Virus record (IMG/VR): IMGVR_UViG_3300030098_002231
Location: 1 to 29,709 of that record
Origin: a virus
Direction: 5' to 3' (one strand)
Length of the DNA: 29,709 nucleotides
Shown piece by piece: positions 1-29,709 of this stretch (within the stretch, counting starts at the first letter, position 1; each line of letters starts with the position of its first letter). A model generated the notes under the pieces. That model was not told the origin of the DNA. It searched no databases and saw only the letters and a program-made list of their open reading frames with translations. The translations under genes and the position numbers were made by a program.

Positions 1-112
1 GTTTTGATTTTTTATATCCAAAACTAGCTAGGGGGGGGTTATAAGCTATGGGTATCTAAACTAGTTTACTGAACTTAAACTGGTTTTAGTTTGGGTTTTG
101 AAAAAAAATAAA
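1..112. other. Left-end non-coding region, candidate packaging (cos) site
   Basis: No gene is visible before the Mom-like gene. The stretch holds a run of eight G at 31-38, exceptional in such an AT-rich genome. It also has a short dyad GTTTTG (1-6) / CAAAAC (19-24), the palindrome AAACTAGTTT (58-67), and several loose copies of a TAAACTNGTTT-like element up to position 100. In HK97-like phages cos usually lies between the HNH nuclease gene and terS, which is this location if the two window ends join. The cos role is inferred from position only. Confidence 0.35.
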
Positions 113-742
113 ATGAGTATAAAAAATAAATATAAAGTAAAATCTATCTCTAAGCATTTATGTAAAGAGTGGTTATTATATAAGCATTATGCTAAGAGAA
201 TCCCTAGCATAAGCTATGCTTTTGGTTTGTTTAATAATGATTTAATAGGTATAATTACTATAGGTAAACCAGCCTCTAATTCATTATGTATTGGAGTTTG
301 TGGTGTAGAAAATTCTAAGTATGTATATGAGCTTAATAGATTATGTGTAAATGATAATTTAGAAAAAAATGTTTTGAGTTTTTTTGTTTCTCAATCTTTA
401 AAAAAATTAGATAATTTAATTTTAGTTAGTTATGCAGATACAAAAATGAATCATCATGGATATATTTATCAGGCTACCAACTGGATATATACAGGTAAAA
501 CAAAAGAAAGAACAGATATAGGATTAGCAAATAATAATCATAGTAGGCATTATAGTAAAAATTTAGATTATTCAAAAAACAGAAAATTTAGAAGTGCTAA
601 ACATAGGTATATATATTTTACAGGTAATAAAAAAAAATGGATTAAAGAATTAAATTACAAAATAGAAAACTATCCAAAAGGAGAAAATAAAAGATATGAC
701 TCCAGTTATAAACCTACAATACAAAAAGAGTTATTTTTATGA
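113..742 (+). CDS. Mom-like DNA adenine modification protein
   Basis: This resembles the Mom family of phage DNA-modification proteins, which have a GNAT-like fold and, in phage Mu, convert adenine to a carbamoylmethyl-adenine that blocks many restriction enzymes. Recognisable blocks are HYAKRIPSISYAFGLF (about residues 25-40), ELNRLCVND (73-81) and SYADT followed by HHGYIYQATNWIYTG (106-128); these are the conserved core I associate with this family. The C-terminal third is basic and could contact DNA. I chose the ATG at 113, which has an A-rich upstream stretch like most genes here; an in-frame TTG at 98 is possible but less likely. The stop overlaps the terS start (ATGA), so the gene is co-expressed with the packaging genes. 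Family assignment is fairly secure from motifs; the exact chemistry and target sequence are unknown. Confidence 0.8.
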   Translation: MSIKNKYKVKSISKHLCKEWLLYKHYAKRIPSISYAFGLFNNDLIGIITIGKPASNSLCIGVCGVENSKYVYELNRLCVNDNLEKNVLSFFVSQSLKKLDNLILVSYADTKMNHHGYIYQATNWIYTGKTKERTDIGLANNNHSRHYSKNLDYSKNRKFRSAKHRYIYFTGNKKKWIKELNYKIENYPKGENKRYDSSYKPTIQKELFL

Positions 743-1218
743 CAGGTAGAAAAAAAATACCAACAGAATTAAAAAAAGCTAGAGGCACTTTAAGAAAATC
801 TAGAGAGCTAGATAATCCTATGGAGGTAGAGAAGGTTTGTACTTTACCAGTATCTCCTGAGTGGCTTTCAGAAATTGGAAAGGAGCAGTATGATTTAGTA
901 GTAAATCAGCTTAATAATATAGGTATGCTTTATCAAGTGGATTTAAAATTGATAGAGGCCTATGCTAATAGCATGGCTTTACATATTGAAGCAGAGCAAG
1001 AGCTGAGGAGAGTAGGTAGGATAATGGTTTATAAAGATGATGAGGGAAGGCCTAAACATTCTCAGATAGTACCTATGCAAACTATCTCTAAACAAGCTCT
1101 AGACCAAGCTATAAAAATAGCTTCTCATTTTGGATTAACTCCCAGCAGTAGAACTAAAATTACATCTCCTCAAAAATTAGAAATTAAAGATAATGAATTT
1201 AACTTTTTTAATGATTAA
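739..1218 (+). CDS. terS: Terminase small subunit, P27 family
   Basis: The 159-residue protein fits the P27-type small terminase family, which recognises the packaging site and loads the large subunit on phage DNA. The N-terminus is basic (GRKKIPTELKKARGTLRKSRE) with the family's typical LK-x-x-x-GTLRK pattern. A helical middle follows, with P-x-WLSEIGKEQYDLVVNQLNNIG at about 39-62. The C-terminal part has ISKQALDQAIKIASHFGLTPSSR (about 116-138), the characteristic family ending. Its start overlaps the end of the Mom-like gene by four bases, and the large terminase follows after one tiny gene. The length is normal for the family. Confidence 0.9.
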   Translation: MTGRKKIPTELKKARGTLRKSRELDNPMEVEKVCTLPVSPEWLSEIGKEQYDLVVNQLNNIGMLYQVDLKLIEAYANSMALHIEAEQELRRVGRIMVYKDDEGRPKHSQIVPMQTISKQALDQAIKIASHFGLTPSSRTKITSPQKLEIKDNEFNFFND

Positions 1219-1220
1219 CT

Positions 1221-1358
1221 ATGGCTCATAAAAAAAATGTTTGGAAATATACTCCTAATAAAAGAAAAAAAAGAAAGGGCATCCATGCCAAAACCAAGCA
1301 GAGCAAGAATAAAAATTCTGAGGGATATAAAAAATCTTATAGAGGTCAGGGTAGATGA
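1221..1358 (+). CDS. Tiny lysine-rich protein between the terminase genes
   Basis: This 45-residue ORF begins two bases after the terS stop and ends inside the terL start in an ATGA overlap, so it fills an otherwise empty 136-base gap exactly. The product is very basic: KRKKRKGIHAKTKQSKNK in the middle and a KSYRGQGR tail. It has no membrane segment and no cysteine. The tight fit, good codon match to its neighbours and strong charge bias argue that it is a real gene. I recall similar short basic proteins in this position in other Bacteroidetes phages, but their role is not known to me; contact with DNA during packaging is only a guess. Confidence 0.7.
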   Translation: MAHKKNVWKYTPNKRKKRKGIHAKTKQSKNKNSEGYKKSYRGQGR

Positions 1359-2908
1359 AATATAAATACAACAAAAAAAAAGCAGAGAGAGCAGTCGCTT
1401 TTATAGAAAAGTATCTAACTCATACTAAGGGAGAGCTAGGGGGTAAACCATTTATACTAGAGGAGTTTCAAAAGGAGGAGATATTAAAACCACTATTCGG
1501 ATGGGTAGATGAGAGTGGTATGAGAAAATATAGAACTTGCTATATAGAAATACCTAGGAAAAATGGTAAGAGTAATCTCTGTGCTGCTATAGTTTTGTAT
1601 CAATTATTTTGCTCAGGAGAAATAGGTCAAGAAATTATTTCAGCAGCAGCTGATAGGTCTCAGGCGAGTATAGTATTTTCAATAGCTAAACAAATGGTAC
1701 TCCAAAATCCTGAACTAAATAAAAGAGCTAAGGTATTTAGAAACTCTATTACTATAGAGAGTACTGGCTCATTTTATAAAGCTATCTCCTCAGAGTCTAA
1801 TACTGCTCATGGTATGAATATAAGTACTCTAATTTTTGATGAGCTACATACTCAGAAATCTAATGATTTATGGGAGGTATGTACTACTGCTACTGGAGCT
1901 AGGAGGCAACCTCTTATCATGGCTATTACTACTGCTGGATATGATAAACAGAGTTTATGCTTTCAGATGTCTGAGTATGCTACAAAAGTAAGAGATGGAA
2001 TTATAAAAGATGATACTTTTTTACCAGTATTATATAGAGCAGATTTAGAGGATGATTGGAAGTCTGAGGAGGTATGGAAGAAAGCTAATCCAGCCTATGG
2101 TACTATTATTAAAAAGGATTATTTTCAACAGCAATTTAAAAAAGCTGAGATTACTCCTAGTTTTCAGAATACATTTAAGAGACTCCATTTAAATATATGG
2201 ACTGGCTCTGAGAGTTTATGGATTACTGATGAGGACTATATGATGTGTAATATCTCTCCTATTGACCCTATTAAATTAAAAGGGAGAGACTGCTTCGCTG
2301 GATTAGATTTAGCTAGTACTAGAGATATATCAGCTCTAGTATTAATCTTTCCTGATGATGATGATAATTTTGATATACTACCTTATTTTTTTGTACCTGA
2401 GGATAAGGTAAATACTCAGGGGGTAGGAGATGGAGTGGATTATCTTAGCTGGGTAGATGAAAAATATATAATATCTACTGAGGGTAATGTACAAGATTAT
2501 AATTTTATAGAGGCTAAATTTAAAGAACTAGCAGAGGATTATAATATAATTTCTTGTGCTTTTGATAGGTGGAACTCATCTCAGATAGTAGTAAACTTAA
2601 TTAATGATGGAGCTAAAATGAATCCTATAGGTATGGGGTTTGTAAGTTTATCAGCTCCTACTAAACTCCTAGAAAAATTAGTCTTATCTAAACAGATTAA
2701 TCATGGAGGCAATCCAGTACTGAGATGGATGTTTAATAATGTACAATTAAAAGAAGACCCAGCTGGAAATATAAAACCTGATAAGTCAAAAAGTACTAAT
2801 AAAATAGATGGAGTGATAGCTCTTATATGTGCCTTAGCTGAATATCTTAACTCAATAGAGGGAGATAATCAATCAATTTATGAAGGTAGAGGCCTAGTAT
2901 TTATATAG
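1355..2908 (+). CDS. terL: Terminase large subunit (ATPase and nuclease)
   Basis: This is the packaging motor and DNA-cutting nuclease, 517 residues, of the HK97/Terminase_1 type. The ATPase domain has Walker A PRKNGKS (67-73), Walker B TLIFDELH (158-165, E163 catalytic) and coupling motif TTAG (192-195). The C-terminal RNase-H-like nuclease has acidic residues at GLDLAST (D318), CAFDRW (D404) and NKIDGVIAL (D485). Length and motif spacing are normal, so it appears intact. The start overlaps the tiny basic gene by four bases. An HNH nuclease gene near the other window end (29240-29584) is the usual partner of this terminase type for cos cleavage. Confidence 0.95.
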   Translation: MKYKYNKKKAERAVAFIEKYLTHTKGELGGKPFILEEFQKEEILKPLFGWVDESGMRKYRTCYIEIPRKNGKSNLCAAIVLYQLFCSGEIGQEIISAAADRSQASIVFSIAKQMVLQNPELNKRAKVFRNSITIESTGSFYKAISSESNTAHGMNISTLIFDELHTQKSNDLWEVCTTATGARRQPLIMAITTAGYDKQSLCFQMSEYATKVRDGIIKDDTFLPVLYRADLEDDWKSEEVWKKANPAYGTIIKKDYFQQQFKKAEITPSFQNTFKRLHLNIWTGSESLWITDEDYMMCNISPIDPIKLKGRDCFAGLDLASTRDISALVLIFPDDDDNFDILPYFFVPEDKVNTQGVGDGVDYLSWVDEKYIISTEGNVQDYNFIEAKFKELAEDYNIISCAFDRWNSSQIVVNLINDGAKMNPIGMGFVSLSAPTKLLEKLVLSKQINHGGNPVLRWMFNNVQLKEDPAGNIKPDKSKSTNKIDGVIALICALAEYLNSIEGDNQSIYEGRGLVFI

Positions 2909-3020
2909 ATTTTTCCTATAAAATACCTAAAAAGCAAAAAATTTTAAAAAAAAATTAAAAAAATTAACAGAGGTAGAACTATTTATTTTTACTTTTAAGG
3001 CATATTTTAGGTCAAAAAAC

Positions 3021-3051: not shown

Positions 3052-3133
3052 CATTATAATTAACGACAAGGTTAATAAAAAAGATTGAGAAATTAACCAA
3101 GTCACAAACTAAAAATTTAAAAACAAATATAAA

Positions 3134-4387
3134 ATGAACAATACAAAAAACACTAAAATCACAATTGGAGAGGATGCAACAAGAGAAAGATTTGAGAAAG
3201 GGAAATCATATTTCGTTGCTAATTTTCCAAAGAAAGGAGATAGAGCAACTCTTGAAACTATGAAGACTGCACAACAAAGAGATGAATTTTTAGAATGGAG
3301 AAAAGAAGAAGAAGCACTGATACATGATACATCTACTTACCCATGTTTCGTTCAAATAGGTGCAGACAAATATGTGTATCATTCAGTTCATGCATCTCAA
3401 ATCATGTTTGCAGACTACTTTGATTGTCCCATAGTTGCTTATAAACTTGAAAGATATGGACATATCACACTTTCAGAATTAATTCACTTTTTCATCACAT
3501 GTGTCTCACAAACAGACACAAGCACTCCAACTGAATTTGAAATATATGAAGCATGTGAAATTCAGTCAAACAGAATGATAGAGGGTGCATTGAAAAGAAA
3601 CATCAAGGTTCTTAAGGAAATGAAGAAATCTTGTGTTGAATACTATGACCAATGGAAGAATTTTGAAATGAAGCAGTTAGATGTAAAAGATTTTTCATTA
3701 GGAGGTTCAAATTATAACAATGTTGAATTGCACCAATTAGGAGCAGATAACGGAGAACAAAAGGAATGTGAAAACTCATTGAGAAGAACTGCACAGAATT
3801 TGTCAAGTGCAATGATGGGTTCAGGATTGATGTCTGCATTAGACACAACAACAGACAGAGAAACATCTGAATGGTTTGAAAAAAGTGAGAAAATAATCAA
3901 TGACTTAAGAAATTCAAATGAACCATTAGAGGTGGAGATGGGAGAACTTATTGTTGATTCTTTTATACTATGGAAGATGTTATTGTCAGACATGACCAAA
4001 ATCAATTCACAGATAGAGAAAAGAAAAACATTCGCAGTTCCATGTCCAAAAGAAATCAAACAGGAAAAAATGAAAAACACAATAAATAACTTTTATGGTT
4101 TCAAAGGTTCATTGGAAGTTCTTTCAGAAGATTGGAAGAAAGATGCACCAAGAGTTCTTGATGCAGGATGGTGTGGAGTTGTGATAACAAGCAGAGAAAT
4201 TGCAGAAGAAATCAACAGAGATTGTGGTCAATCATTAAGACAAGACAACGCACAAGGAGGATGGATTCTTTGGTCTGATTCTACAAATGATTCTTTCACA
4301 AAGTTTGAAGGCAAGGTTCATGACATAGTGAGCAAATGGAGTGATAAGTTTTCAGGACATGTAAGAGTAGTTGCAAGACAATTATAA
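3134..4387 (+). CDS. Accessory protein of unknown function, moron-like
   Basis: I do not recognise this 417-residue protein. It has no signal peptide or membrane segment and looks soluble. The middle (about 130-300) is mostly helical and rich in Lys/Glu. Isolated cysteines occur at positions such as CPIVAY, CVSQ, EACEIQ and WCGVVI. The last 80 residues (from GWCGVV to HVRVVARQL) look like a separate mixed alpha/beta domain. Codon use differs from the flanking phage genes: Thr ACA, Ser TCA and Ala GCA dominate and Ile ATC is frequent, whereas neighbours favour ACT, TCT, GCT and ATA. It has its own promoter-like site and is followed by a hairpin. This is the pattern of a moron, an independently transcribed late arrival, here between terL and portal. 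Such genes often affect host fitness or phage competition; nothing in the sequence shows which. Confidence 0.85.
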   Translation: MNNTKNTKITIGEDATRERFEKGKSYFVANFPKKGDRATLETMKTAQQRDEFLEWRKEEEALIHDTSTYPCFVQIGADKYVYHSVHASQIMFADYFDCPIVAYKLERYGHITLSELIHFFITCVSQTDTSTPTEFEIYEACEIQSNRMIEGALKRNIKVLKEMKKSCVEYYDQWKNFEMKQLDVKDFSLGGSNYNNVELHQLGADNGEQKECENSLRRTAQNLSSAMMGSGLMSALDTTTDRETSEWFEKSEKIINDLRNSNEPLEVEMGELIVDSFILWKMLLSDMTKINSQIEKRKTFAVPCPKEIKQEKMKNTINNFYGFKGSLEVLSEDWKKDAPRVLDAGWCGVVITSREIAEEINRDCGQSLRQDNAQGGWILWSDSTNDSFTKFEGKVHDIVSKWSDKFSGHVRVVARQL

Positions 4388-4400
4388 ATAAATAATAACA

Positions 4401-5200: not shown

Positions 5201-6388
5201 TTGGGATTACTAGATTTTTTTAAAAAAGAAAAAAGAGGTTCAAATTTTTTATCATCTGCTAACTTATACGGAAATAATTCAGGAGTAGGAGTTAGTGAAA
5301 AATCCTCTATAGGATTGACTGCTGTTTGGGCTTCAGTTAGATTACTATCTGAGACTATAGCATCTCTACCTCTCAATTTATATAGAATGGATAATAAAGG
5401 GTCTAAATTTATAGATTTTAAATCTCCTTTAAATACTTTAATGTCTACCTCTCCTAGTCCTAATTATACTACTTATAATTTTATAGAGACTATGATGAGC
5501 AATCTTTTGCTGTGGGGGAATGCTTATGCTTTTATTAAAAGGAATGGAGGAGCTAGACCAGTAGAGTTACAAATCTTAAGTCCTGAGTATGTAGAGCCTT
5601 TTAAATCTGAGGAGGATGGATTAGTCTATTATAAAATAAAAGACTCAAATATATTATCAGATAGAGAGGTGATTCATATAGTGGGCTTTAGCTATGATGG
5701 AGTATTAGGTAAATCTCCTATTAAAGCCTGTCAGGAAGCTCTTGGTATAGGTATGGCTTCTCAAGAATTTGGAGCTAATTTTTTTGGTAGAGGAGCTAAT
5801 CTATCAGGAGTATTAGAGCATCCATCTAGATTATCAGATGATGCAGCTAATAGACTTAGACAAAGTTTTAGCAATAGATTTGCTGGTATTAAAAACTCAC
5901 ATCAAACAGCAGTACTTGAGGAGGGAGTAAAATTTAAAGCTATAGGGATGCCTTTATCAGATGCTCAATTTATAGAGACTCGGAGATTTAGTGTTGAGGA
6001 GGTAGCTCGTATCTTTAGAGTGCCTAATCATTTAATAAATGACCTAACTCGGAGTACTTACTCTAATATAGAACAACAGTCTTTAGAGTTTGCAAAATAT
6101 AGTCTTACTCCATATTTAGTAAACTGGGAGCAAGAACTAAACAGAAAATTATTAGCTAGTAGAGAAATATCTACTCACTTCTTTAAATTCCAAACCAAGG
6201 AACTACTGAGGTCTGATGCTAATAGTAGAGCTGATTACTATCGTAAACTATTTGAGGTAGGAGCTTTATCTCCTAATGAGATTAGAAATATGGAGGATAT
6301 GAATACTCTAGGAGCAGAAGGGGATGAGCATTATGTACCTTTAAACTTAGGACAGGTAGGAGATAATAATACTGATGATGAAGGATAA
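5201..6388 (+). CDS. Portal protein
   Basis: The HK97-type portal forms the dodecameric ring through which DNA enters the head. The 395 residues match the family length. Typical features are the MGLLDFFKK start, SIGLTAVWASVRLLSETIASLPLNLY (about 36-61), NLLLWGNAYAFIKRNGGARPVELQIL, and DLTRSTYSNIEQQSLEFAKYSLTPYLVNWEQELNRKLL near residues 285-320. The start is a TTG codon; I accept it because MGLLDFF is the usual portal N-terminus and no better in-frame ATG exists upstream. It follows a terminator and a possible promoter, and its end overlaps the kinase/protease gene by 14 bases. Confidence 0.93.
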   Translation: MGLLDFFKKEKRGSNFLSSANLYGNNSGVGVSEKSSIGLTAVWASVRLLSETIASLPLNLYRMDNKGSKFIDFKSPLNTLMSTSPSPNYTTYNFIETMMSNLLLWGNAYAFIKRNGGARPVELQILSPEYVEPFKSEEDGLVYYKIKDSNILSDREVIHIVGFSYDGVLGKSPIKACQEALGIGMASQEFGANFFGRGANLSGVLEHPSRLSDDAANRLRQSFSNRFAGIKNSHQTAVLEEGVKFKAIGMPLSDAQFIETRRFSVEEVARIFRVPNHLINDLTRSTYSNIEQQSLEFAKYSLTPYLVNWEQELNRKLLASREISTHFFKFQTKELLRSDANSRADYYRKLFEVGALSPNEIRNMEDMNTLGAEGDEHYVPLNLGQVGDNNTDDEG

Positions 6389-7478
6389 TAAAATATATTT
6401 AGTATTAGGTAGCTCCTGTAGTGGTAAGTCTACTTATGTGAGGAGTAATGCAGATAGTAATGATATAGTATTTGATTTTGATACGATACATCAAGCTATA
6501 ACTATTAATAAATCTCATATACATTTAAATCATATAAAAGATTATGTATTTGAAATAAGGAGAACTATATACAATAAATTAAAAGAGGATAAAAATATAA
6601 CAGCTTGGATTATTAATAGTACTCCATATAGAGAAAATAGGCAAAAAATAGTAGATGAGCTAGGAGCTGAAATAATATATTTAAAAAGGAGTAAAGATAG
6701 CTGTATAGAAATTGCAAAAAATGAAAGACCCGAGGAGTGGGTAGAATATATAGAAAATTATCATAAAAATTTTGAGGACTTTGAGGACTCAGAAAATGTA
6801 AAAGTAATAAACATGGATAAAGAAAATATAAATCATAGAAATAAAATTAACATAGAAGGCTTAGAGAGAAGAAACTTTAATAATTCTGAAATAAGAGTCT
6901 CTAATGCAGAGAGTAGAGAGGTGGTAGGTTATGCCTCTGTATTTACTGATGCAGAAGGTAATACGGCTTTATCTGAAAATCTAGGAGGATTTAGAGAAAA
7001 AATATCTCCTAATGCTTTTGATTCTGTATTAAAAGATGATGTACGAGCTTTATTTAATCATGACCCTAATTATATACTAGGTAGAACTACCTCAGGAACT
7101 CTATCTCTATCAGTAGATGAGAGAGGATTAAAATATAATTTTACTGCTCCTGATACTAGTTATGGTAGAGATTTGATGGTAAGTCTAGAGAGAGGAGATG
7201 TTTCTCAATCATCTTTTGGATTTATAGTAGAGAGTGATAGCTGGGAGGAGGATTCCGAAGGTAGAACTATTAGAACTATTGAAAAGGTAGGGAGATTATT
7301 AGATGTATCTCCAGTAACTTATCCAGCTTATCCTGATGCTGAGGCTGGTAAGAGGAGCTTTTTAAATTACAGAACTGAAAAAGAAAAAGAAGAAAACAAG
7401 AAACAGGAACAATACCAAATTAAGAGGAAACTATTAGAATTAAAAACTAAATTATTAAAACTTAAAAAAGATTATTAA
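6375..7478 (+). CDS. P-loop kinase-like domain fused to HK97-type prohead protease
   Basis: Two domains lie in one 367-residue chain. Residues 1-135 form a P-loop NTPase of the nucleotide/polynucleotide-kinase type: Walker A GSSCSGKST (12-20), a DFDTIH acidic motif (34-39) and NSTPYRENRQKIVDELGAEIIYL (81-103). Residues 165-330 form the S78/U35 prohead protease that cleaves capsid scaffold: GYASVF (185-190), FNHD with His229, GDVSQSSFGF with Ser280, and VSPVTYPAYPDA (311-322). The C-terminus is a charged coil. It lies between portal and capsid as expected. An in-frame ATG at 6813 (residue 147) could yield the protease alone. The protease assignment is secure; the substrate of the kinase-like domain is unknown. 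Confidence 0.88.
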   Translation: MMKDNKIYLVLGSSCSGKSTYVRSNADSNDIVFDFDTIHQAITINKSHIHLNHIKDYVFEIRRTIYNKLKEDKNITAWIINSTPYRENRQKIVDELGAEIIYLKRSKDSCIEIAKNERPEEWVEYIENYHKNFEDFEDSENVKVINMDKENINHRNKINIEGLERRNFNNSEIRVSNAESREVVGYASVFTDAEGNTALSENLGGFREKISPNAFDSVLKDDVRALFNHDPNYILGRTTSGTLSLSVDERGLKYNFTAPDTSYGRDLMVSLERGDVSQSSFGFIVESDSWEEDSEGRTIRTIEKVGRLLDVSPVTYPAYPDAEAGKRSFLNYRTEKEKEENKKQEQYQIKRKLLELKTKLLKLKKDY

Positions 7479-7479: not shown

Positions 7480-8709
7480 ATGGATTCATTTAAATTAAAA
7501 GAAGAAAGAGCTACCATAATAAGTAATATGGAGGCGATTTTGGATTTTGCTAAATCTGAAGAAAGAGACCTTACTGAGGATGAGCAAAATAACTGGGATG
7601 GTTTTAATACTGAGATAGAAAATATAGATAAAAAAATTACTATAGCAGAAAGACAAGAAGATTTAAATAAGTCTATCGCTGCTAATATCTCAGCTACTAA
7701 ATCCACAAAACAACCAAAAGAATTAAAAAATTATTCGTTCCAAGAGGCTATGAAACAATCAGTTTCAGGGAATCTTTCAGGACTAGTTAAGGAGATGGAT
7801 GCTGAGGCTCGTATGGCACATCCTCACCAAATGTTTAGAGGTATAGCTATACCATCATCAGTACTAGAGCATAGAGCTGCTGTAGCTACTGCTGGTTCTT
7901 CAGCTACTGAGGTCATGTCTTTTACAGACCAATTAGAAGCTAATCTAGTACTAGCATCAGCTGGAGCTAATTTTTATTCTGGTGTAAATGATATGAAATT
8001 TCCTATCGTTTCTAGTATTACATCATCTTGGGTAGCTGAGGATGGAGAGTCTGATGTAGCTGCTAGTGGTAGTACTTCATCTCTTACCTTATCTCCAAAG
8101 AAATTAATTTCTGTTGTAGATATGTCAGCTGAAGCAATGGCTCAAAACGCTGGACTAGAGGGAGCTATTCGTAGAAATATGGCTGCTAGTGTGGCTTCTA
8201 CTTTAGAGACTGCTTTACTTACTGCTGGTAGTGATGATACTAATGCTCCACAGTCTATCTTTACAGATGCTTCAGATGGTTCAGCTGCTGCTACTGGTGT
8301 AACTGCTGCTGATTTTATAACTTTAGAAACTACAGTACTAGGTAATAATGTTCCTTTAGAAGGAGCTAGAATGGCTTATATCTTTGATAAGGATGCTTAT
8401 ACATCAATCCGTACTCTATTACAGACTACTGGTGTAGCTGCTTTATGGAATCCTGAGGATAGGAGATTAAATAACTATTTTGGTTTCTTCAGCACTAATG
8501 TAGGAAATGGTGGAACTGCTGATAAAGCTCATGCTTTATTTGGAGATTTCTCAAAAGTACATATTGCACAATTTGGAGGACTAGATATTTTATTTGACCC
8601 TTACACTAAATCTAGACAAGGTTTAGGCTCAATGGTCGTTACTTCTCTAGTAGATGGTAACGCTGTTCAAAATGATAAAGCCTTTGCTAGTCTTATTGAA
8701 GCAGCGTAA
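7480..8709 (+). CDS. Major capsid protein, HK97 fold
   Basis: This is the main head shell protein, 409 residues. The first 70 or so residues form the charged coiled-coil delta/scaffold domain (SEERDLTEDEQNNWDGFNTEIENIDKKITIAERQEDL), normally removed by the prohead protease encoded just upstream. The mature part has PIVSSITSSWVAEDGESDVAASGSTSSLTLSPKKLISVVDMSAEAM, the typical HK97-family N-arm to A-domain region, and a Gly/Ala-rich C-terminal half. I cannot place the cleavage site exactly; it probably lies between residues 90 and 125. The start has the A-rich AAAATG context, and a strong terminator follows the stop. Confidence 0.93.
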   Translation: MDSFKLKEERATIISNMEAILDFAKSEERDLTEDEQNNWDGFNTEIENIDKKITIAERQEDLNKSIAANISATKSTKQPKELKNYSFQEAMKQSVSGNLSGLVKEMDAEARMAHPHQMFRGIAIPSSVLEHRAAVATAGSSATEVMSFTDQLEANLVLASAGANFYSGVNDMKFPIVSSITSSWVAEDGESDVAASGSTSSLTLSPKKLISVVDMSAEAMAQNAGLEGAIRRNMAASVASTLETALLTAGSDDTNAPQSIFTDASDGSAAATGVTAADFITLETTVLGNNVPLEGARMAYIFDKDAYTSIRTLLQTTGVAALWNPEDRRLNNYFGFFSTNVGNGGTADKAHALFGDFSKVHIAQFGGLDILFDPYTKSRQGLGSMVVTSLVDGNAVQNDKAFASLIEAA

Positions 8710-11777: not shown

Positions 11778-13225
11778 TAGGGAAAGCTATACATAAAATG
11801 TTAACTGAGAAAATCTCTACTTTATCAAGTGGAGGGGTTTACCCTTTAGTAATACCTCAAAATGCTATAGGGGGTACTACTAAATATCCAGCTTTAGTAT
11901 ATAATCAATATAATGAATATGAATCCTCTAAAGATTCTGAACCTAATATGAGTTACTGTCAGCTATCGCTACAGATTATCTCTGATAGTTATAAAACCAT
12001 GGATGAGGTAGGTAATCAAGTTAGAGACTTATTAGACCATTATGAGGATAAAAGTACTGAGGGTTTATTTAGTGTGCCTAATTATACTGATAATGGTTAT
12101 GTACATAACTTTATAAATAATATAGATATTCAAAATATATTTTATACTGACCAAGAGGATGAGTATTATGAGAAACTCAATCTATTTACTAGGAGGATAG
12201 AGTATGATATTTATTATTATGATAATATAGGGAAATTTAGCTATAATCAAAAAAACTCTGATAATTATACTCCTACTAATCCTCTAGCTTTATATTATGA
12301 TTTTACAGCTAAAGGATTAATGAGAAAATCATCAGGGGCAGCTATTAATTACCATACAAAAATAACTAATAATACAGATGTAGACTATGTATTTAATAAA
12401 CTAGGAATAGTAAAAGACTTATCTTATAATACTATTACTACTACAAATGATACTTTTTATGAGTATTTACAATCAGGAAGGTCTCAGGCTGGATTTAGAC
12501 CTACTTATAAAGATGGCTTAACTGCTAGTACTTTACCCTTTTTAGAGTTTAGTAATTATGACTCTTTGGAGGTGGTTTCATCTACCTCTGCTCTGCCTAG
12601 TCAGTTTGTATTACCTTTTGGAGCTATGATTATTTATGTATACAAACCTATAGGAACAGGTTCAGAAAATTATTTACTAGGGTCTAAAAGTGAAACAGAG
12701 GATTTAAGACCTTTAATTTTATCTCATAAAAAGGTAGGAGATGATATTACTTTACATTTTAAACCTAATGGAATAACTTTTGATGATTCATCATCTGAGA
12801 GAACTTTAATAAGTTCTACAGATTCAACTAACTATTGGGATGCTGATTATCATTTTTTTTGCTTATCTTTGGGGGGTAGTAAGCAATATACTGGAGGCAG
12901 TTATAATCAGGTAGGATGGTATGAGTATTTTAACTCAAATTATAATCCTAAACTCACTACAGGACAAATACTAAAAAATAATCTTATAACAGGTAACACA
13001 GATAATCTAGATAATGATACGAATAATAATTTTTATCTATCTAGAATAGGTCAAAGGTCAGGAGATGCGACAGGGGAATTTAGAGTATATGAGCTGTTAT
13101 TATTTATACCTAATGAAGCTCAGACTCATAACATAGATGCAGATGCTGCTCCCTTCCAGCCTACAGATATAATATATAAAAAGGTAAAAGATTATATATA
13201 TAATAAATATGAATTATTAAAATAA
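11774..13225 (+). CDS. Tail-completion protein fused to a lectin-like domain, copy 2
   Basis: This is a diverged paralogue of the gene just upstream, 483 residues. The N-termini align as MVGQALKWMLT / MIGKAIHKMLT, then YPNIIPQN / YPLVIPQN and YPALTY / YPALVY, which also supports the TTG start at 11774. The C-terminal part (about 165-483) again resembles a lectin-like beta sandwich, with LPFLEFSNYDSLEVV, a GEFRVYELLLFIPNE strand pair and the closing IIYKKVKDYIYNKYELL helix. The two copies differ strongly between these anchors, so the duplication is old or the domains were exchanged. One copy may serve as tail terminator while the other became a neck decoration; which is which cannot be told. 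Confidence 0.7.
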   Translation: MIGKAIHKMLTEKISTLSSGGVYPLVIPQNAIGGTTKYPALVYNQYNEYESSKDSEPNMSYCQLSLQIISDSYKTMDEVGNQVRDLLDHYEDKSTEGLFSVPNYTDNGYVHNFINNIDIQNIFYTDQEDEYYEKLNLFTRRIEYDIYYYDNIGKFSYNQKNSDNYTPTNPLALYYDFTAKGLMRKSSGAAINYHTKITNNTDVDYVFNKLGIVKDLSYNTITTTNDTFYEYLQSGRSQAGFRPTYKDGLTASTLPFLEFSNYDSLEVVSSTSALPSQFVLPFGAMIIYVYKPIGTGSENYLLGSKSETEDLRPLILSHKKVGDDITLHFKPNGITFDDSSSERTLISSTDSTNYWDADYHFFCLSLGGSKQYTGGSYNQVGWYEYFNSNYNPKLTTGQILKNNLITGNTDNLDNDTNNNFYLSRIGQRSGDATGEFRVYELLLFIPNEAQTHNIDADAAPFQPTDIIYKKVKDYIYNKYELLK

Positions 13226-13230: not shown

Positions 13231-13464
13231 ATGCGAGTAAAACAATATAGAGTAAGATTAATAAAAGATAAAGGGCCTTATAGTACAGGCGAAATGTATG
13301 GGCCTGTAGATATAGTAGGGTATAAGAGTCTATATGAGGCTGGATATATTAATGACTATCTAGGATTAATAGAAACTAAAAAAGCAGAAACTAAAAAAGC
13401 AGAAACTAAAAAAGCAGAAACTAAAAAAGAGGAAACAAAAAAAGAGGAAACAAAAGAAAAATAA
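13231..13464 (+). CDS. Small structural-region protein with a KKAET repeat tail
   Basis: 77 residues, not recognised as a family. The first 47 residues form a compact, mixed segment (MRVKQYRVRLIKDKGPYSTGEMYGPVDIVGYKSLYEAGYINDYLG by pattern a small beta domain with a short helix). The last 30 residues are six near-identical ETKKA/ETKKE units. Position between tail completion and tail tube suggests a minor neck or tail component. The repeat tail is highly charged and probably a helix or a disordered tether. Its start codon lies five bases after the preceding stop. Confidence 0.7.
   Translation: MRVKQYRVRLIKDKGPYSTGEMYGPVDIVGYKSLYEAGYINDYLGLIETKKAETKKAETKKAETKKEETKKEETKEK
13372..13461 (+). repeat. 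15-base tandem repeat inside the 77-residue gene
   Basis: Six consecutive 15-base units, GAAACTAAAAAAGCA for the first three and slightly diverged after that, encode ETKKA and ETKKE. Near-identity at DNA level indicates recent copy-number change by slippage, while the frame is kept because the unit is a multiple of three. Confidence 0.9.
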
Positions 13465-14901: not shown

Positions 14902-15239
14902 ATGACTCTCCTCCTCCCTCTTTGGAGAAATTAATGGGATTAGCTATTGGCTTTCTTAATATGTCCTTGGATGAGTTTTGGGATTTTACTCCTAGACAGC
15001 TACAGATAAAATTAGATGCTAGGAGAGAGTATGAGGACTTATTACAGAGGTTTGAGTGGGAGAGGGTTAGATTTCAAACGACTGCTCTCATAAATAAAGA
15101 TAGAAAAAGGAGAGACCAAATTAAGCAAACCGATTTAATTAAATTTGACTGGGAGAAAGGTAGTGCTATTAAAAACAGGGAAGAAGAAAGAAAAAAGGCT
15201 CTTTATTTAATAGAAAAAGAAAAAAGAAAAAATAAATAA
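14886..15239 (+). CDS. Tail assembly chaperone, frameshift extension (gpT-like part)
   Basis: This frame is the C-terminal extension of the gpGT-like protein. After the slip it reads EGGEIDDSPPPSLEKLMGLAIGFLNM and continues for 117 residues. There is no good start codon of its own: the first candidates are TTG at 14922 and ATG at 14934, both without the usual A-rich leader. SLDEFWDFTPRQLQIKLDARREYEDLLQRFEWERVRFQTTALINKDRKRR is the typical content of the T part, with the W-x-x-TP-x-x-L pattern. The C-terminus is strongly basic. The stop overlaps the tape-measure start (TAATG), as in other siphoviruses. Confidence 0.83.
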   Translation, partial: EGGEIDDSPPPSLEKLMGLAIGFLNMSLDEFWDFTPRQLQIKLDARREYEDLLQRFEWERVRFQTTALINKDRKRRDQIKQTDLIKFDWEKGSAIKNREEERKKALYLIEKEKRKNK

Positions 15240-17584
15240 TGTCTAGTACAAAAACACTATCTATATTTCTGAAACTAAACTCTAAGGAGTTTACTACAGG
15301 AATAAAAAAAATAGAGGGTAAATTAGGTAAATTTAGTAAGAGACTAGATAGAATAGGCTCTAGCTTAACTCGGAATTTAACTCTCCCTTTATTAGCTGTA
15401 GGAGCTTCATCAGTAAAGGCAGCCTCGGACTTTGAGGCATCTATGACTAAGATTCAGACCTTAGTCGGTACATCTGCTTCAGATGTAAATAAATTAAGAG
15501 AATCTGTTTTACAATTATCAGGAAAAACTGCCACAGCTCCTAGAGAACTGGCTGAGGGTTTGTTTTTTATTCAATCTGCTGGATTTAAGGGTAAGGCATC
15601 TCTAGATGCTTTAGAGGTTTCTGCTAAGGCATCAGCTATAAAAATGGGAGATATGAAGGACATAGCTAATGCTTTGACTTCTATGATGACTGGTTATGCT
15701 AAGGAAAATATGACAGCTGTAAGGGCTGGAGATTTACTGCATGAAACATTAAAACAGGGTAAATTTGAAGCAGCTGACTTTATGGATAAGATAGGAACTG
15801 TAATTCCTACCGCAGCAGCTTTTGGTATATCTTTTGAGCAACTAGGAGCATCTGTAGCCACTATGTCTAGACTCTCAGGAGATGCAGCTAGTAGCTTAAC
15901 GGCAGTCAATAGGTTAATGATGTCTCTTAATGCTCCAGCAGAGCAACAGAGTAAAATTTTAAAAGATGTTTTTGGTAGCTATGATAATCTCGCTGAGTCC
16001 TTAAAAAAAGATTTCGCTGGTACTTTAGGAATTATATTTAAAGCTCTAGAGGGTAATAATAAAGAATTAACTAAAGTATTCGGCTCTACTAAGGCCGTAA
16101 AAGCAGCGTTTTCTACTGCTGGTCTACAGGCTGAAACTTATAGCGAGGTACTGGATAAAATGGACAAGTCTCTAGGTAATGTGAATAATGGTTTAAACAT
16201 AGCTTCTGAGACTGCTGAGTTTAAATTTCAGCAGAGTTTAGTAGATTTAGGAGTAGCTAGTATTAGACTAGGAGATACTCTCAAGCCAGTAGCTACTAAA
16301 ATAGCTACTTGGATTAGTAAAATGGCTAATAGATTTTCTAGATTAAGCTCTGAGACTGTAGAGAAAATATCTAAAATAGGTCTAGCTTTATTAGCGTTAG
16401 GGCCAAGTATATTGATTTTAGGTAAAATAGCATCTATGTTTAAATACTTACTAGTACTGGTAAGATTATTAATACCCACTTTACTAGCAGTCGGTAGATT
16501 TTTTATGGCTCTTACTCCTTTTGGTAGGATAATAACTTTAATAGCTGCTGCTATAGGATTAATGGCATCTCAATGGGATAAAACGAAAGAGATGATGGTA
16601 AAGGTGATTAATTTAGTTATAGGATTAGCTAACACCTTTATAACTTTGAAGGATGTAATGGTAGAGGCTGTGATATTTGGGTTTAAATTTTTTGTAGAAA
16701 AATCTAAACTATATCTGAATTTAATAGGGGGATTTTTTGAGGGATTAGGTAATGTTATTATAGATGTCTTAAGCTTTAATGACCCAAGAGAAAGTTTTAA
16801 AAAGTTTAAAGATGGTTTAAAAGCTGATATAGATGATTCTGCTGATGCTACCGCTAAGGCTTGGGATAAAGCTATGGATAAAATTAAATCTGATGATAAT
16901 AAATTAGGTTTACTAGAGGTAGAGGATATAAATAATATGGAGGGAAAGCTATTAGATACTTTTCAGTCTATGTTTGATAAAGTAGGTAATATGTGGGGAG
17001 ATACTTTTAAAGGTGGAGGAGGTGGAGGAGATTTTGATATAGGAGATGGTCTAGGTGGAGAGATTCCTGAATTTGAGGATATAGAGACTGGATGGGGGAA
17101 TATGCTTAAAAGTATGAAAGATATGACTACTGAGTTTTTTGAGGGATTTGATGAGAGATTCGCTGATATGGTAGCTAATACAATCGCTGAGGGAAGAAAT
17201 TTAGCTGAAGGATTTAAAGGCTTTGTTAAGGAGATAATAAAGGAGATGACTAGATTAATAGTTAAAATGCTAGTAATGAAGGCTATAATGGCAATCATAA
17301 ATCCAGCTGGTACAGCTGCTACAGCTGTAGCGGATGTGGGTTCTTCTGTTGCTGGGTTTGCTAAGGGAGGCTTAGTTACTGGCCCTACTTTAGCCATGGT
17401 AGGAGAGGGGTCAGGTACTACTCTATCTAATCCTGAGGTAATAGCTCCTTTAGATACTTTAAGAGGTATGATGGGAGGCCCATCTAGATTATCAGGAAGA
17501 ATACAGGGAGCAGATATATTATTATCATCAGATAGGTCTACAGATAGCAGATATAGGGTTTCAGGCTCAGTAACAGATTTTTAA
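15239..17584 (+). CDS. Tail tape measure protein
   Basis: 781 residues, matching TP901-type tape measures. The N-terminal region has SSTKTLSIFLKLNSKEFTTGIKKIEGKLGKFSKRLDRIGSSLTRNLTLPLLAVGASSVKAASDFEASMTKIQ, read in pieces as the usual coiled coil and 'A-x-DFEASM' motif, followed by the family block around residues 70-170. A hydrophobic stretch at about 378-445 gives several possible membrane segments, which may insert in the host membrane at DNA entry. The end, GFAKGGLVTGPTLAMVGEGSG...EVIAPLD, is typical. At about 0.15 nm per residue the tail would be roughly 115 nm long. There is no visible lysozyme or peptidase domain. Confidence 0.93.
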   Translation: MSSTKTLSIFLKLNSKEFTTGIKKIEGKLGKFSKRLDRIGSSLTRNLTLPLLAVGASSVKAASDFEASMTKIQTLVGTSASDVNKLRESVLQLSGKTATAPRELAEGLFFIQSAGFKGKASLDALEVSAKASAIKMGDMKDIANALTSMMTGYAKENMTAVRAGDLLHETLKQGKFEAADFMDKIGTVIPTAAAFGISFEQLGASVATMSRLSGDAASSLTAVNRLMMSLNAPAEQQSKILKDVFGSYDNLAESLKKDFAGTLGIIFKALEGNNKELTKVFGSTKAVKAAFSTAGLQAETYSEVLDKMDKSLGNVNNGLNIASETAEFKFQQSLVDLGVASIRLGDTLKPVATKIATWISKMANRFSRLSSETVEKISKIGLALLALGPSILILGKIASMFKYLLVLVRLLIPTLLAVGRFFMALTPFGRIITLIAAAIGLMASQWDKTKEMMVKVINLVIGLANTFITLKDVMVEAVIFGFKFFVEKSKLYLNLIGGFFEGLGNVIIDVLSFNDPRESFKKFKDGLKADIDDSADATAKAWDKAMDKIKSDDNKLGLLEVEDINNMEGKLLDTFQSMFDKVGNMWGDTFKGGGGGGDFDIGDGLGGEIPEFEDIETGWGNMLKSMKDMTTEFFEGFDERFADMVANTIAEGRNLAEGFKGFVKEIIKEMTRLIVKMLVMKAIMAIINPAGTAATAVADVGSSVAGFAKGGLVTGPTLAMVGEGSGTTLSNPEVIAPLDTLRGMMGGPSRLSGRIQGADILLSSDRSTDSRYRVSGSVTDF

Positions 17585-23102: not shown

Positions 23103-23603
23103 ATGTATTTATCTAAAAATTTTACATTAAAAGAGATGACCTCATCAAATGTAGGAATAAGATTAGGTATAGATAATTCTCCTACTACTGAGGGGATTAG
23201 GAAACTTACAATCTTAGCAAACTCTTTATTACAGCCTATTAGAAATGATATAGGCCCATTAAGAATTACATCAGCTTTTAGAAATGAAGCTATAAATCAG
23301 GCTCTAGGGGGTAGTGTTAATTCTCAGCATTGCAGATATGAGGCAGCAGATGTCCAGTACTTTAAAGATGGTAAAATGGATAATCTTAAAATCTATGAGT
23401 CTATTATAAATAATTGTATAGAGTTTGACCAGCTTATATTAGAGTTTGGAGAAGGCTGTACAGAGTTTACAGATAGCTCTAATCCTTACTGGATTCATTT
23501 AAGCTATAAAATAGCTGATAATAGGAATCAGGTTCTCGTAGCTTATAAAGATGAAAATAATAAAACTAAGTATAGAAAACCTATAGAATATAAATCATTA
23601 TGA
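23103..23603 (+). CDS. M15-type peptidase, endolysin
   Basis: 166 residues of the D-Ala-D-Ala carboxypeptidase-like M15 family, single-domain as in many phage endolysins of Gram-negative hosts. Zinc-site residues are in place: R60 in TSAFR, SQHCRYEAADV with H76 and D83, and WIHLSY with H132. The likely catalytic acid is in the FDQLILEFGE segment (E113-E117). There is no signal peptide, so release through a holin is expected; the holin-like gene follows with a four-base overlap (ATGA). It would cleave peptide cross-links or stem peptides of peptidoglycan at the end of infection. Confidence 0.87.
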   Translation: MYLSKNFTLKEMTSSNVGIRLGIDNSPTTEGIRKLTILANSLLQPIRNDIGPLRITSAFRNEAINQALGGSVNSQHCRYEAADVQYFKDGKMDNLKIYESIINNCIEFDQLILEFGEGCTEFTDSSNPYWIHLSYKIADNRNQVLVAYKDENNKTKYRKPIEYKSL

Positions 23604-25586: not shown

Positions 25587-25588
25587 CT

Positions 25589-27138: not shown

Positions 27139-27140
27139 TT

Positions 27141-27230
27141 ATGGATAAAGATATAGAAAAACTATCTAGAATAATAATTACAATAGTTAGTATAATAATA
27201 ATTTTACTTACTTATCTAGCAATTAACTAA
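27141..27230 (+). CDS. Tiny membrane peptide, 29 residues
   Basis: An ORF two bases after the DUF3127-like gene, ending 13 bases before the next gene, in the right position and with ATTATGG start context. The product is one hydrophobic helix: MDKDIEKLSRIIITIVSIII then ILLTYLAIN. Such hydrophobic short ORFs arise readily in AT-rich DNA, but it fits the only space between two otherwise tightly packed genes. Confidence 0.45.
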   Translation: MDKDIEKLSRIIITIVSIIIILLTYLAIN

Positions 27231-27243
27231 AAATGAGAAACAG

Positions 27244-28014
27244 ATGGCAAAATACAGACAACTACATACAACCTTTTGGAATGACCCTTTAATACTGGAT
27301 TTAACTCCTGAACAGAAATACTTTTATATTTATTTACTTACTAATCCTAATGTAAAACAATGTGGAATATATGAGATTTCAGTAAGGCAAATTACCTATC
27401 ATACTGGATATAATAAAGAAACTATAGAGAAACTATTAGAATTATTTGTAAATCTTAATAAGATAGTAATAAGTAAAAAGACTAATGAAATAGCTTTAGT
27501 CAATTTTTTAAAGTATAATTACTCTGCATCTCCTACTATAAAAAAATGTATAGAGAAGGATTTAGATGATGTAAAAAATAAAGAATTAATAAAGTATATA
27601 TACAGTATAGATAGTCTAGATATAGAGTATGTAGGTAATAATAAGAATAAGAATAAGAATAATAAAAAGAATAATAATAAGAATGAGTTACCTAAAACAG
27701 AGGATGAGTTTAGAGAGTATGTAAATAAATTAGAGCATAAGGAGCATCATAAAGATTTCATAGATTACTGGTGTGAAGGTTCTCCTAAAATGAGATTTAC
27801 CTATGAGAAAACTTTTGATATATCTAGAAGGTTATCTAGATGGGCTAATAATCAATACAGTACTAAAAAAAATAAGATTCCTGATTATTTTGATGAGCTT
27901 TTGTATAAAAGGATGGACTTAACAGCTAAAAAAGATTATGAGAATCATTTAAAAGATTTAGGGTATCAGTATTCTTATAATCCTAATAGCGGGGGTAAAT
28001 GGATAAAAAAATGA
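27244..28014 (+). CDS. Replisome-organiser-like replication protein
   Basis: 256 residues. The N-terminal domain (1-110) is a winged-helix type like phage replisome organisers: MAKYRQLHTTFWNDPLILDLTPEQKYFYIYLLTNP, then IYEISVRQITYHTGYNKETIEKLLELFVNLNKIVIS. A low-complexity N/K linker (about 131-147) joins it to a C-terminal domain (about 150-256) with HHKDFIDYWCEGSPKMRFTYEKTFDISRRLSRW, a block I know from Bacteroidetes phage replication proteins. Such proteins bind the origin and recruit host helicase. No phage helicase, loader or polymerase is encoded, so host enzymes must do the rest. The origin may lie in or near this gene, as is common for this protein class; not seen directly. Confidence 0.72.
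   Translation: MAKYRQLHTTFWNDPLILDLTPEQKYFYIYLLTNPNVKQCGIYEISVRQITYHTGYNKETIEKLLELFVNLNKIVISKKTNEIALVNFLKYNYSASPTIKKCIEKDLDDVKNKELIKYIYSIDSLDIEYVGNNKNKNKNNKKNNNKNELPKTEDEFREYVNKLEHKEHHKDFIDYWCEGSPKMRFTYEKTFDISRRLSRWANNQYSTKKNKIPDYFDELLYKRMDLTAKKDYENHLKDLGYQYSYNPNSGGKWIKK
27636..27685 (+). repeat. AATAAG-type microsatellite coding for an Asn/Lys linker
   Basis: Runs of AATAAGAATAAG and related AAT/AAG triplets encode NNKNKNKNNKKNNNKN between the two domains of the replication protein. The triplet basis keeps the frame. In several phage replication genes such repeats coincide with the origin; that is only a possibility here. Confidence 0.75.
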
Positions 28015-28208
28015 GAAAATATAGTTTTATAATATGTTGGATAATTACTATAGGTTTATTACTATATAGTATGAATATCATAAGAGACTTTAATTGTAAC
28101 ATGGATAATCTTAAAGATACATCTGAATTATTATTAATAGACTCTCTACAGTTAGAGATAATGGAAATAGGAGCAGAGCTTGACTCTTTAAATTTAATTA
28201 ATCAATAA
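28011..28208 (+). CDS. Small membrane protein, 65 residues
   Basis: One N-terminal hydrophobic helix (YSFIICWIITIGLLLYSMNII, about 4-24) followed by an acidic helical domain (DFNCNMDNLKDTSELLLIDSLQLEIMEIGAELDSLNLINQ) with a coiled-coil-like Leu/Ile spacing. I chose the ATG at 28011, which overlaps the previous stop as ATGA; an in-frame ATG at 27999 would add four residues. The stop overlaps the next start (TAATG). The single-helix type II topology resembles small host-membrane-targeting phage proteins; no function known. Confidence 0.6.
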   Translation: MRKYSFIICWIITIGLLLYSMNIIRDFNCNMDNLKDTSELLLIDSLQLEIMEIGAELDSLNLINQ

Positions 28209-28399
28209 TGAATATAGAATTACTAACATATAAAGAAGCTAAATCCCTAATGATTAATGATTGGGAATTTTTAGACAGAAAATTATCTGAACATTATAAA
28301 AAAGATGTAATAGCTTTAATTTGTGAAGGAACTAAAAATATATTTTTTGCATACAAAAAAACAGGAGAACCTATAAAAACATTATTGTATAATGATTAA
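28208..28399 (+). CDS. Hypothetical early protein, 63 residues
   Basis: Not recognised. It is a compact alpha/beta-type small protein: a helix (TYKEAKSLMINDWEFLDRKLSEHYKKD), a strand (VIALICEG), and TKNIFFAYKKTGEPIKTLLYND, which looks like a beta hairpin. It has no membrane segment or motif. Its start shares the TAATG overlap with the upstream gene and the end overlaps the HNH gene by eight bases, so it belongs to the early operon. Confidence 0.58.
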   Translation: MNIELLTYKEAKSLMINDWEFLDRKLSEHYKKDVIALICEGTKNIFFAYKKTGEPIKTLLYND

Positions 28400-28727
28400 T
28401 CATAAAAAAGTATATATAGATTATTTCGGATATGCTGTAGGAGATATAATTATATGTGAGGTTTGTAAGCATCAAGTATCTGATATAAATAATTTTAAAG
28501 AAAAGCCTCCAGTATTAAGAGAGGCTGTAGATATTCACCACATAATACCTAGGTCAAAAGGAGGTAGTAATAGAATTAGGGGGAGTAAATATCCTTTAGA
28601 CTTTCCTGAGAATCTTATAGCTTTATGCAGAGAGCATCATATTGAAGCTGAGAGCTGTAAAGAAACTAATAAAAGATTTAGGATAATACATTTAAAAAAT
28701 ATAATTAATAAGATACAAAATGGCTAA
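28392..28727 (+). CDS. HNH nuclease, early region
   Basis: 111 residues with a full HNH motif: C22-E-V-C25 zinc knuckle, VDIHHIIPRSKGGSN (H49, H50) and ENLIALCREHH (N74, C79, H82, H83). It is a compact zinc-supported His-Me finger nuclease. The 20-residue insert between the first and second halves (RIRGSKYPLDF) is a modest extension. The gene sits in the early operon, not next to the terminase, so it may act in recombination, host DNA degradation or as a free-standing homing nuclease. It overlaps both neighbours by eight bases. Confidence 0.83.
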   Translation: MINHKKVYIDYFGYAVGDIIICEVCKHQVSDINNFKEKPPVLREAVDIHHIIPRSKGGSNRIRGSKYPLDFPENLIALCREHHIEAESCKETNKRFRIIHLKNIINKIQNG

Positions 28728-28905
28728 GAATAAATTAAATATAGAAAATGAGATGGTAGAGTACTTCACTCATATAGGAGAGAGAGCTGTGATATATAAT
28801 AAAAAGATTAATAAAGAGATAGAAGGACTTGAAAAATTTAATAAAGAACAGAAGAAAATTATAAAAGAATTTTTTTTACATATACTAAAGGAGTTAGATA
28901 AATGA
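28720..28905 (+). CDS. Small charged early protein, 61 residues
   Basis: Not recognised. A lysine/glutamate-rich helical protein: NKLNIENEMVEYFTHIGERAVIYNKK, then INKEIEGLEKFNKEQKKIIKEFFLHILKELDK with coiled-coil-like spacing. There is no membrane segment or cysteine. It overlaps the HNH gene by eight bases and shares the ATGA overlap with the tiny ORF after it. Confidence 0.55.
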   Translation: MAKNKLNIENEMVEYFTHIGERAVIYNKKINKEIEGLEKFNKEQKKIIKEFFLHILKELDK

Positions 28906-28991
28906 AAATAATTAACTATATTTGTAGTTCCTCTTATGAGGTTTTTGTATTTGTTTCTATTGTAGAGGCCTTTATGCTATTCAGTATTTAG
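28902..28991 (+). CDS. Possible tiny ORF, 29 residues
   Basis: An ORF with the ATGA overlap to the upstream gene gives a hydrophobic peptide beginning MKIINYICSSSYEVFVFVSI. It ends in the 3' arm of a hairpin (28962-28999). The overlapping start suggests translation, but length and hydrophobicity allow a chance ORF. Confidence 0.3.
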   Translation: MKIINYICSSSYEVFVFVSIVEAFMLFSI

Positions 28992-29004
28992 GCCTTTACT
29001 TTTT
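28962..29004 (+). terminator. Hairpin with T tract, terminator or attenuator
   Basis: GTAGAGGCCT (28962-28971) pairs with AGGCCTTTAC (28990-28999), ten pairs including one G-T, around an 18-base loop, followed by TTTTT (29000-29004). It is more G/C-rich than its surroundings and lies 11 bases before the next ATG. It may end the early transcript or attenuate reading into the last two genes. Confidence 0.55.
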
Positions 29005-29015
29005 ATATATATACT

Positions 29016-29240
29016 ATGGATGAAATTAATATAGATGATTTGATAAAAATGGCTGGAGGTAATGTGTATGATACTGAGTATTCTCATAAACTTACTATAA
29101 GCTGTAAGGATAGTACTTATAAATTATTTAAGGAATTAAAAAAGAAATTACTTTTAATGGATATAAAGGTAAACAATGCTCAGTTATTTGAGTTTATGGT
29201 AATAGAGTTATATAATAGTAATTTAAATAGTTTGTCCTAA
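29016..29240 (+). CDS. Hypothetical protein, 74 residues
   Basis: Not recognised. It is acidic at the start (MDEINIDDLIKMAGG) and then YSHKLTISCKDSTYKLFKELKKKLLLMDIKVNNAQLFEFMVIELYN. A short strand followed by two helices resembles the plan of small ribbon-helix-helix DNA-binding proteins, and a 'strand plus helices with conserved I-x-x-A/F-x-x-F-M' layout is common there. This is a weak similarity. It shares the TAATG overlap with the HNH gene next to it, and follows a hairpin. Confidence 0.55.
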   Translation: MDEINIDDLIKMAGGNVYDTEYSHKLTISCKDSTYKLFKELKKKLLLMDIKVNNAQLFEFMVIELYNSNLNSLS

Positions 29241-29584
29241 TGCCTTATCTACCTACTACTACTAAATATAAATGGATAAGAAAATTAAAGAAGGACTATA
29301 ATAAATCTTATTCATCTCCTGAATTAGCTAAGGAGTATAATACTACTAGATGGAAAAAATTAAGGAGTTATTTTATTAAGAGAAATCCTTTGTGTGTTAT
29401 ATGTAAAAGGAATGATAGAATCAAAGAAGCTGTACTAGTAGACCATATTAAAGAGGTAGCTGATGGAGGAGGTATGTATGAGTATAATAACTTGCAAAGT
29501 TTATGTGACCCATGTCACAGGAGTAAAACTAGTTTAGCTGTACATAAAAGATATAAAAATAAATTAAAAAACAATACACCTTAA
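29240..29584 (+). CDS. Terminase-associated HNH endonuclease
   Basis: 114 residues: NTTRWKKLRSYFIKRNPLCVIC (about 34-55) with the usual 'W-x-x-LR-x-x-x-x-x-x-x-P-x-C' start, C52/C55, VDHIKEVADGGG (D68, H69), NNLQSLCDPCHRSKT (N83/N84, C89, C92, H93, K96). This is the class of HNH protein that in HK97-like phages is encoded beside the terminase and is needed for cos cleavage. If the window ends join, it is about 240 bases upstream of the Mom-like and terminase genes, the expected place. The last residues are basic. Confidence 0.87.
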   Translation: MPYLPTTTKYKWIRKLKKDYNKSYSSPELAKEYNTTRWKKLRSYFIKRNPLCVICKRNDRIKEAVLVDHIKEVADGGGMYEYNNLQSLCDPCHRSKTSLAVHKRYKNKLKNNTP

Positions 29585-29709
29585 AATCTTTGATTTAAGA
29601 GGTCTTTATTTAATATGAGTAAAAACACTATAAAAGATGGTTAAGCCCTTAAAAATAAAAATAAGAGGGGATAGGGGGTGTCAATCATACAGGGTTTTAA
29701 ACTCCATAA
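29585..29709. other. Right-end non-coding region
   Basis: No gene is seen after the HNH gene. The stretch contains G-rich patches GAGGGGATAGGGGGTG (29665-29680) and the dyad GTTTTAAAC (29694-29702). Together with 1-112 it would form a non-coding region of about 235 bases between the HNH nuclease and the Mom-like gene, the likely site of DNA packaging. No terminal repeat with the window start was noticed. Confidence 0.35.

Follow-up and report, generated by a model that had tools for sequence, protein, structure and literature searches.

Restriction-site avoidance is itself well known. About a tenth of phage genomes have been found to show elimination of Type II sites (PMC6286503), and in lactococcal 936-type phages the packaging region is a hotspot at which methyltransferases, including a GATC-specific one, have been inserted as a protection from host enzymes (PMC4190342). 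What distinguishes the locus described here is that close relatives have each erased different sets of sites. We analysed a linear virus record of 29,709 bases (hereafter the window, meaning this whole stretch of DNA) that lacks GATC, and we consider it very likely that all of its GATC sites were selected away by orthodox Type II enzymes recognising GATC (DpnII/MboI/Sau3AI type) in hosts, past or present, that were probably marine Bacteroidota. The sequences themselves show that GATC is wholly absent, that the loss is synonymous, that elimination across the family is specific to palindromes, that relatives differ and that modification genes are present; which enzyme and host were involved, and that selection works by cleavage, are the parts of this explanation that we infer.

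The window is a tailed-phage genome or near-genome, in which the following features were assigned.

98 to 742, plus strand: predicted Mom-like DNA modification protein of the adenine-modification family (Pfam Mom, E 1.3e-34; PHROG 1384, E 7.8e-59)
739 to 1218, plus strand: terminase small subunit, terS (Pfam Terminase_4, E 1.2e-16)
1219 to 1354, no strand: gap between terS and terL, the position that holds a C5-cytosine methyltransferase gene in relatives G001 and G005
1355 to 2908, plus strand: terminase large subunit, terL (47-48% to annotated phage terminases by tblastn)
3134 to 4387, plus strand: orphan gene of 417 amino acids, with no family match and not present in the sister contig G001
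5201 to 6388, plus strand: portal protein (PHROG 12, E 2.2e-122)
6375 to 7478, plus strand: head maturation protease (PHROG 80, E 4.8e-57)
7480 to 8709, plus strand: major capsid protein (tblastn to annotated capsid proteins)
15239 to 17584, plus strand: tail tape measure protein (PHROG 991, E 2.4e-50)
23103 to 23603, plus strand: endolysin (PHROG 894, E 2.4e-27)
28392 to 28727, plus strand: HNH endonuclease 1 (Pfam HNH_2/HNH)
29240 to 29584, plus strand: HNH endonuclease 2 (Pfam HNH, E 1e-11)

Other products include a connector, tail proteins, a holin, an SSB-like protein and a DUF3127 protein, together with a RecT-like fragment that scores under its cut-off. No integrase was found among the window proteins scanned, which represent part of the open reading frames of a record that may be incomplete. 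A 77-aa protein ends in tandem ETKKA/ETKKE repeats (13391-13464), a source of spurious genome matches. The orphan gene at 3134-4387 matched neither protein families nor phages; it recurs solely in L056/L057, at 87% amino-acid identity, and its DNA is about 92% identical in L056, a distant and likewise GATC-free phage, so that it appears to be a recent arrival by transfer. A part for this gene in GATC loss was considered and rejected, for it is present in GATC-free L056 yet missing from GATC-free G001.

The earlier note on this DNA had claimed from reading alone that GATC is absent throughout and that base composition predicts tens of sites. Both statements hold: a recount of all 29,709 bases gives 0, and base composition predicts 79.8. 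A maximal-order Markov model predicts 85.9, or 97 when both strands are counted, although Markov expectations drop where neighbouring words are also avoided. Codon shuffling that keeps the proteins and the codon usage gives 76.2 ± 6.1 GATC (range 56-97 in 1000 runs), placing the observed zero at z -12.6, and by both the Markov and the codon-shuffled tests GATC is the most depleted of all 4-mers in the window. Each 3 kb of the sequence should contain a similar number of sites (7-11), which makes the absence a property of the entire window, and nearly the whole effect must sit in genes, since only 1,510 bases are non-coding. (The count of ATC trinucleotides, which the earlier note put at about 300, is 384.)

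The avoidance is synonymous, as had been proposed, and its codon-level signature is sharp. Before a C, aspartate is encoded by GAC in 41 of 41 cases and never by GAT; before A, G and T the GAC fraction is 0.09, 0.00 and 0.25, with 175 GAT and no GAC before G. Among 96 isoleucine codons that follow a G, none is ATC, and a serine codon comes directly after an xGA codon just once in the window versus 49-51 times in each of three relatives. In relatives G002, G005 and G007, aspartate before C is GAT in 176 of 177 cases, and this reversal relative to the window indicates that codons have been exchanged synonymously. Ten individual aspartate sites had been cited in support: GAC before C is found at or within a few bases of nine of them, while position 12158 itself reads GAT-GAG, with the Asp-Gln pair a few bases away. 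High AT content and the rarity of the GAC codon might invite a trivial explanation, whether chance or an artefact of base composition, of codon bias or of library preparation with an enzyme that cuts GATC, but the lowest of 1000 codon-shuffled values is 56, GAC is used exactly where GAT would create GATC, and a separately assembled sister is also GATC-free; the codon-level evidence refutes this explanation, to which we give a negligible chance of being correct.

Comparison with related phages, which the earlier note had suggested, turns the window into one member of an informative series. Searches with the window's terminase (L002-L033), capsid (L034-L063) and Mom proteins returned about 90 loci in all, several of them fragments. 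The sister contig G001, which carries another metagenome collection number, is 98% identical to the window and likewise GATC-free. Relatives with 79-91% identical terminases retain GATC at observed/expected ratios of 0.6-1.0 (86 observed of 137 expected in G002, 105 of 118 in G005, 128 of 128 in G007 and 30 of 48 in G003), and at 72-75% identity in DNA the relatives hold GATC at or near expectation. Where GATC positions of G002, G005 and G007 can be aligned to the window (50, 72 and 71 positions, respectively), the window retains none, and the commonest change is to GACC; in the same alignments it retains about 36-55% of GATG and GATA and about 37-41% of CTAG. These four relatives keep GATC and may be without other sites: G002, for example, contains none of 55 expected CATG, a word present in the window. 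The presence of GATC at 72-75% DNA identity means that the trait turns over within the family, and the elimination predates the split of the window from its 98%-identical sister. The selection had been described as long-lasting, and that is right insofar as it is older than this split; it does not extend to the relatives at 72-75% identity, which keep their sites.

The same relatives bear on a possibility that the earlier note had raised beside restriction, namely that the phage must stay free of Dam-type methylation itself. Evading methyl-directed mismatch repair, or regulation that depends on methylation, would be a possible reason. MutH-type methyl-directed repair is not known from Bacteroidota, which counts against this idea. 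There is a precedent in phiX174, which is also without GATC and in which 20 restored sites lowered the mutation rate eightfold (PMC5014478). Against it stand the close relatives that hold GATC at the ratios given above, the like elimination of TCGA, CATG, CTAG and other words that have no link to Dam (TCGA and AATATT are both at zero in the window), and the outcome of a search of 34 records, in which no Dam-type (D12) methyltransferase scored above the cut-off. With GATC behaving like any other Type II palindrome, this part of the earlier interpretation loses its footing, and we judge it very improbable. A Dam-type methyltransferase of their own was likewise rejected as the cause of GATC retention in the relatives, which have no D12 match above the cut-off; the methyltransferases found in them are of N6/N4 or C5 types.

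Evidence for orthodox Type II restriction also comes from asking which 4-mers disappear. We tested 59 non-redundant contigs that belong to the window's family or carry Mom (some share the Mom gene alone, and the set therefore extends beyond a single family), requiring at least 12 expected copies and scoring a word as eliminated at 5% or less of expectation. Elimination was recorded in 55 of 679 tests of palindromic words versus 6 of 6460 tests of non-palindromic words; when the analysis was repeated by codon shuffling in 16 genomes, the corresponding figures were 29 of 197 and 16 of 1868. The palindromes concerned are GATC (eliminated in 14 of 53 contigs), CATG (14 of 57), CTAG (6 of 50), TCGA (5 of 31), GCGC (5 of 18), CCGG (4 of 16), ACGT, GGCC, GTAC and AGCT, and all ten are known Type II specificities. 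Because elimination is nearly confined to palindromes, the pattern is the one that orthodox Type II restriction leaves behind, and no reason peculiar to GATC or to Dam is needed. Together with the synonymous nature of the loss, this lends good support to the proposal of strong selection by a GATC-cutting specificity. A related reading would substitute a DpnI-like methyl-directed enzyme: methylation of GATC acquired in one host would expose the phage DNA to cutting in the following host, and a genome with zero GATC would fare best. In Flavobacterium psychrophilum, orphan methylation of GATC, with no cognate nuclease, is frequent (PMC11837570), and the methylated form of GATC (Type IIM) was avoided in 46 of 46 phages examined (PMC6286503). 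Nonetheless, some ten palindromes, GATC among them, have been eliminated here across different members; ordinary cleavage suffices to explain this, and we therefore consider the methyl-directed version unlikely.

At the same time, a single restriction specificity, as originally claimed, is too narrow: a GATC-cutting activity fits the data, yet TCGA and AATATT, which the earlier note overlooked, have been eliminated too, and they are probably not the only ones. Words at zero in the window also include ACGT and the non-palindromic pair GACG/CGTC, and CCAGA/TCTGG is reduced to 2 copies versus 33 expected. AATATT, the SspI site, is at 0 versus 33 by codon shuffling and is also at 0 in G001, G002, G005 and G006. 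GACG/CGTC, counted on both strands, is at 0 versus 38 expected by codon shuffling, with similar deficits in L041 (0 of 28), G002 (0 of 12) and L053 (1 of 21). GACC/GGTC is nearly eliminated in G002 and G005 (1 of 30 and 1 of 42), and ACGG/CCGT is at zero in three relatives. At Asp-Pro, Asp-Gln and Asp-His pairs the avoidance of GATC conflicts with that of GACC, one of the two words being unavoidable. CpG stands at 5-6% of expectation in G003 and G007 and at 17% in the window, compared with 152% in relative L036, and TpG/CpA is not raised in G003, G007 or the window. Orthodox Type II enzymes do not account for everything, GACG/CGTC being non-palindromic. Since GACG/CGTC, GACC/GGTC and ACGG/CCGT are lost and CpG is depleted with no rise in TpG/CpA, we tentatively raise the idea, to which we would give only a low probability, that these phages face a further, undescribed defence with a non-palindromic 4-base or CpG-type specificity, in addition to orthodox Type II enzymes.

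Avoidance may be only one of two layers of protection. The product of 98-742 is a predicted Mom-like adenine-modification protein, whose residues 12-194 cover positions 2-202 of the 202-position Pfam Mom profile (E 1.3e-34), a full-length family match. The gene is missing from the 98%-identical sister and from other terminase relatives, and the slot upstream of terS that it occupies in the window is filled in G007 (97-741) by an N6/N4 methyltransferase. A C5 methyltransferase lies between terS and terL in G001 and G005 and beside terL in G003. The terS/terL region is a swap site at which DNA-modification genes (Mom, C5, N6/N4) are exchanged between close relatives. In G005 (L095), a 281-aa gene at 1861-2706 (starting MKKVVSISGGKSSAYI) lies between the C5 methyltransferase and terL; it has no NCBIfam match and, judged by eye, its product is possibly PAPS-reductase-like. 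Among the carriers of Mom relatives, 22 kb of Acinetobacter phage JeffCo (L104) contain none of 66 expected CCGG. The Mom protein of phage Mu targets adenines in an S-A-S context, and because GATC is not such a context, Mom modification and GATC avoidance would be complementary. The two HNH genes of the window call to mind another form of self-protection, in which a phage-encoded endonuclease cuts host GATC and the phage must itself be GATC-free. Orthologues of HNH 1 (59-64% amino-acid identity) and HNH 2 (67-79%) are, however, conserved in G002, G005 and G007, which carry 86-128 GATC, and such self-cleavage is accordingly a highly improbable cause, slightly less credible even than the avoidance of Dam methylation.

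Several traits suggest that the host of the window belongs to the Bacteroidota: signal peptides of ANAQ/GYSQ type, read by eye, the DUF3127 protein, and the methyltransferases of the relatives, which have their nearest counterparts in Flavobacterium and Riemerella phages. The source samples are presumably marine, judging from the metagenome numbers of the relatives, and the host is probably a marine member of that phylum. No relatives of the window capsid were found in GTDB genomes, and the terminase found six distant loci there, at no more than 35% identity, in unrelated phyla and one Parabacteroides. Prophage and spacer matches in 395 genomes of the phylum of Parabacteroides were weak or of low complexity, falling mainly on the ETKKAETKK repeat at about 13374-13444, and only 2 of these 395 genomes gave a strong match in a DpnII family search. 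A complete DpnII-type operon, with a D12 methyltransferase, a DpnII nuclease and a DpnA-like methyltransferase, is present in L111, a genome of the same phylum; with no convincing host match, no cognate enzyme is tied to the phage.

The general course of events under selection by GATC-specific Type II enzymes can still be outlined. Consider a phage whose incoming DNA carries unmodified GATC, each copy of which would be a cut point for the host. Mutants with fewer sites would survive more often, and sites would be lost until none was left, mostly through synonymous changes that replace GAT by GAC before C, exclude ATC after G, and exclude codons of the form xGA before TCN. Other enzymes, acting by the same process, would bring about the loss of TCGA, AATATT and probably further sites, and the swappable modification genes beside the terminase genes, here the Mom-like one, would provide the second, complementary anti-restriction layer. 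The elimination of GATC is as complete as it could be and demonstrably synonymous, and close relatives that differ both in the sites eliminated and in the modification genes held in one slot amount to a natural experiment. The family permits tests of the pace at which site avoidance arises and disappears, of whether modification can stand in for avoidance and vice versa, and of whether the sites eliminated from an uncultured phage reveal which restriction enzymes its hosts have carried.

Among known systems, the cases of Rusinov et al. 2018 (PMC6286503) resemble the window in the near-complete loss of orthodox Type II sites, GATC included, from non-temperate dsDNA phages; the window differs from them in having lost several sites together, non-palindromic ones included, and in that its close relatives lack other sets. 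Staphylococcus phages K and fRuSau02 (PMC5618024) also have zero GATC, which was ascribed to host restriction enzymes, but they are large, unrelated phages of a Gram-positive host. Listeria phage A511 (Pecentumvirus) combines 0 GATC versus 46 expected, in the 28 kb examined, with a Mom-like gene of 60% amino-acid identity, yet it is a 137-kb phage of another host phylum and is not among the best capsid and terminase matches listed. The GATC-free genome of phiX174 is that of a 5.4-kb ssDNA phage of E. coli, in which the effect is discussed in terms of mismatch repair (PMC5014478). Finally, the lactococcal 936-type phages, like the relatives of the window, have methyltransferases inserted between terS and terL (PMC4190342); what sets the present family apart is that the slot also houses a Mom-like gene, the carrier of which is GATC-free rather than GATC-methylated.
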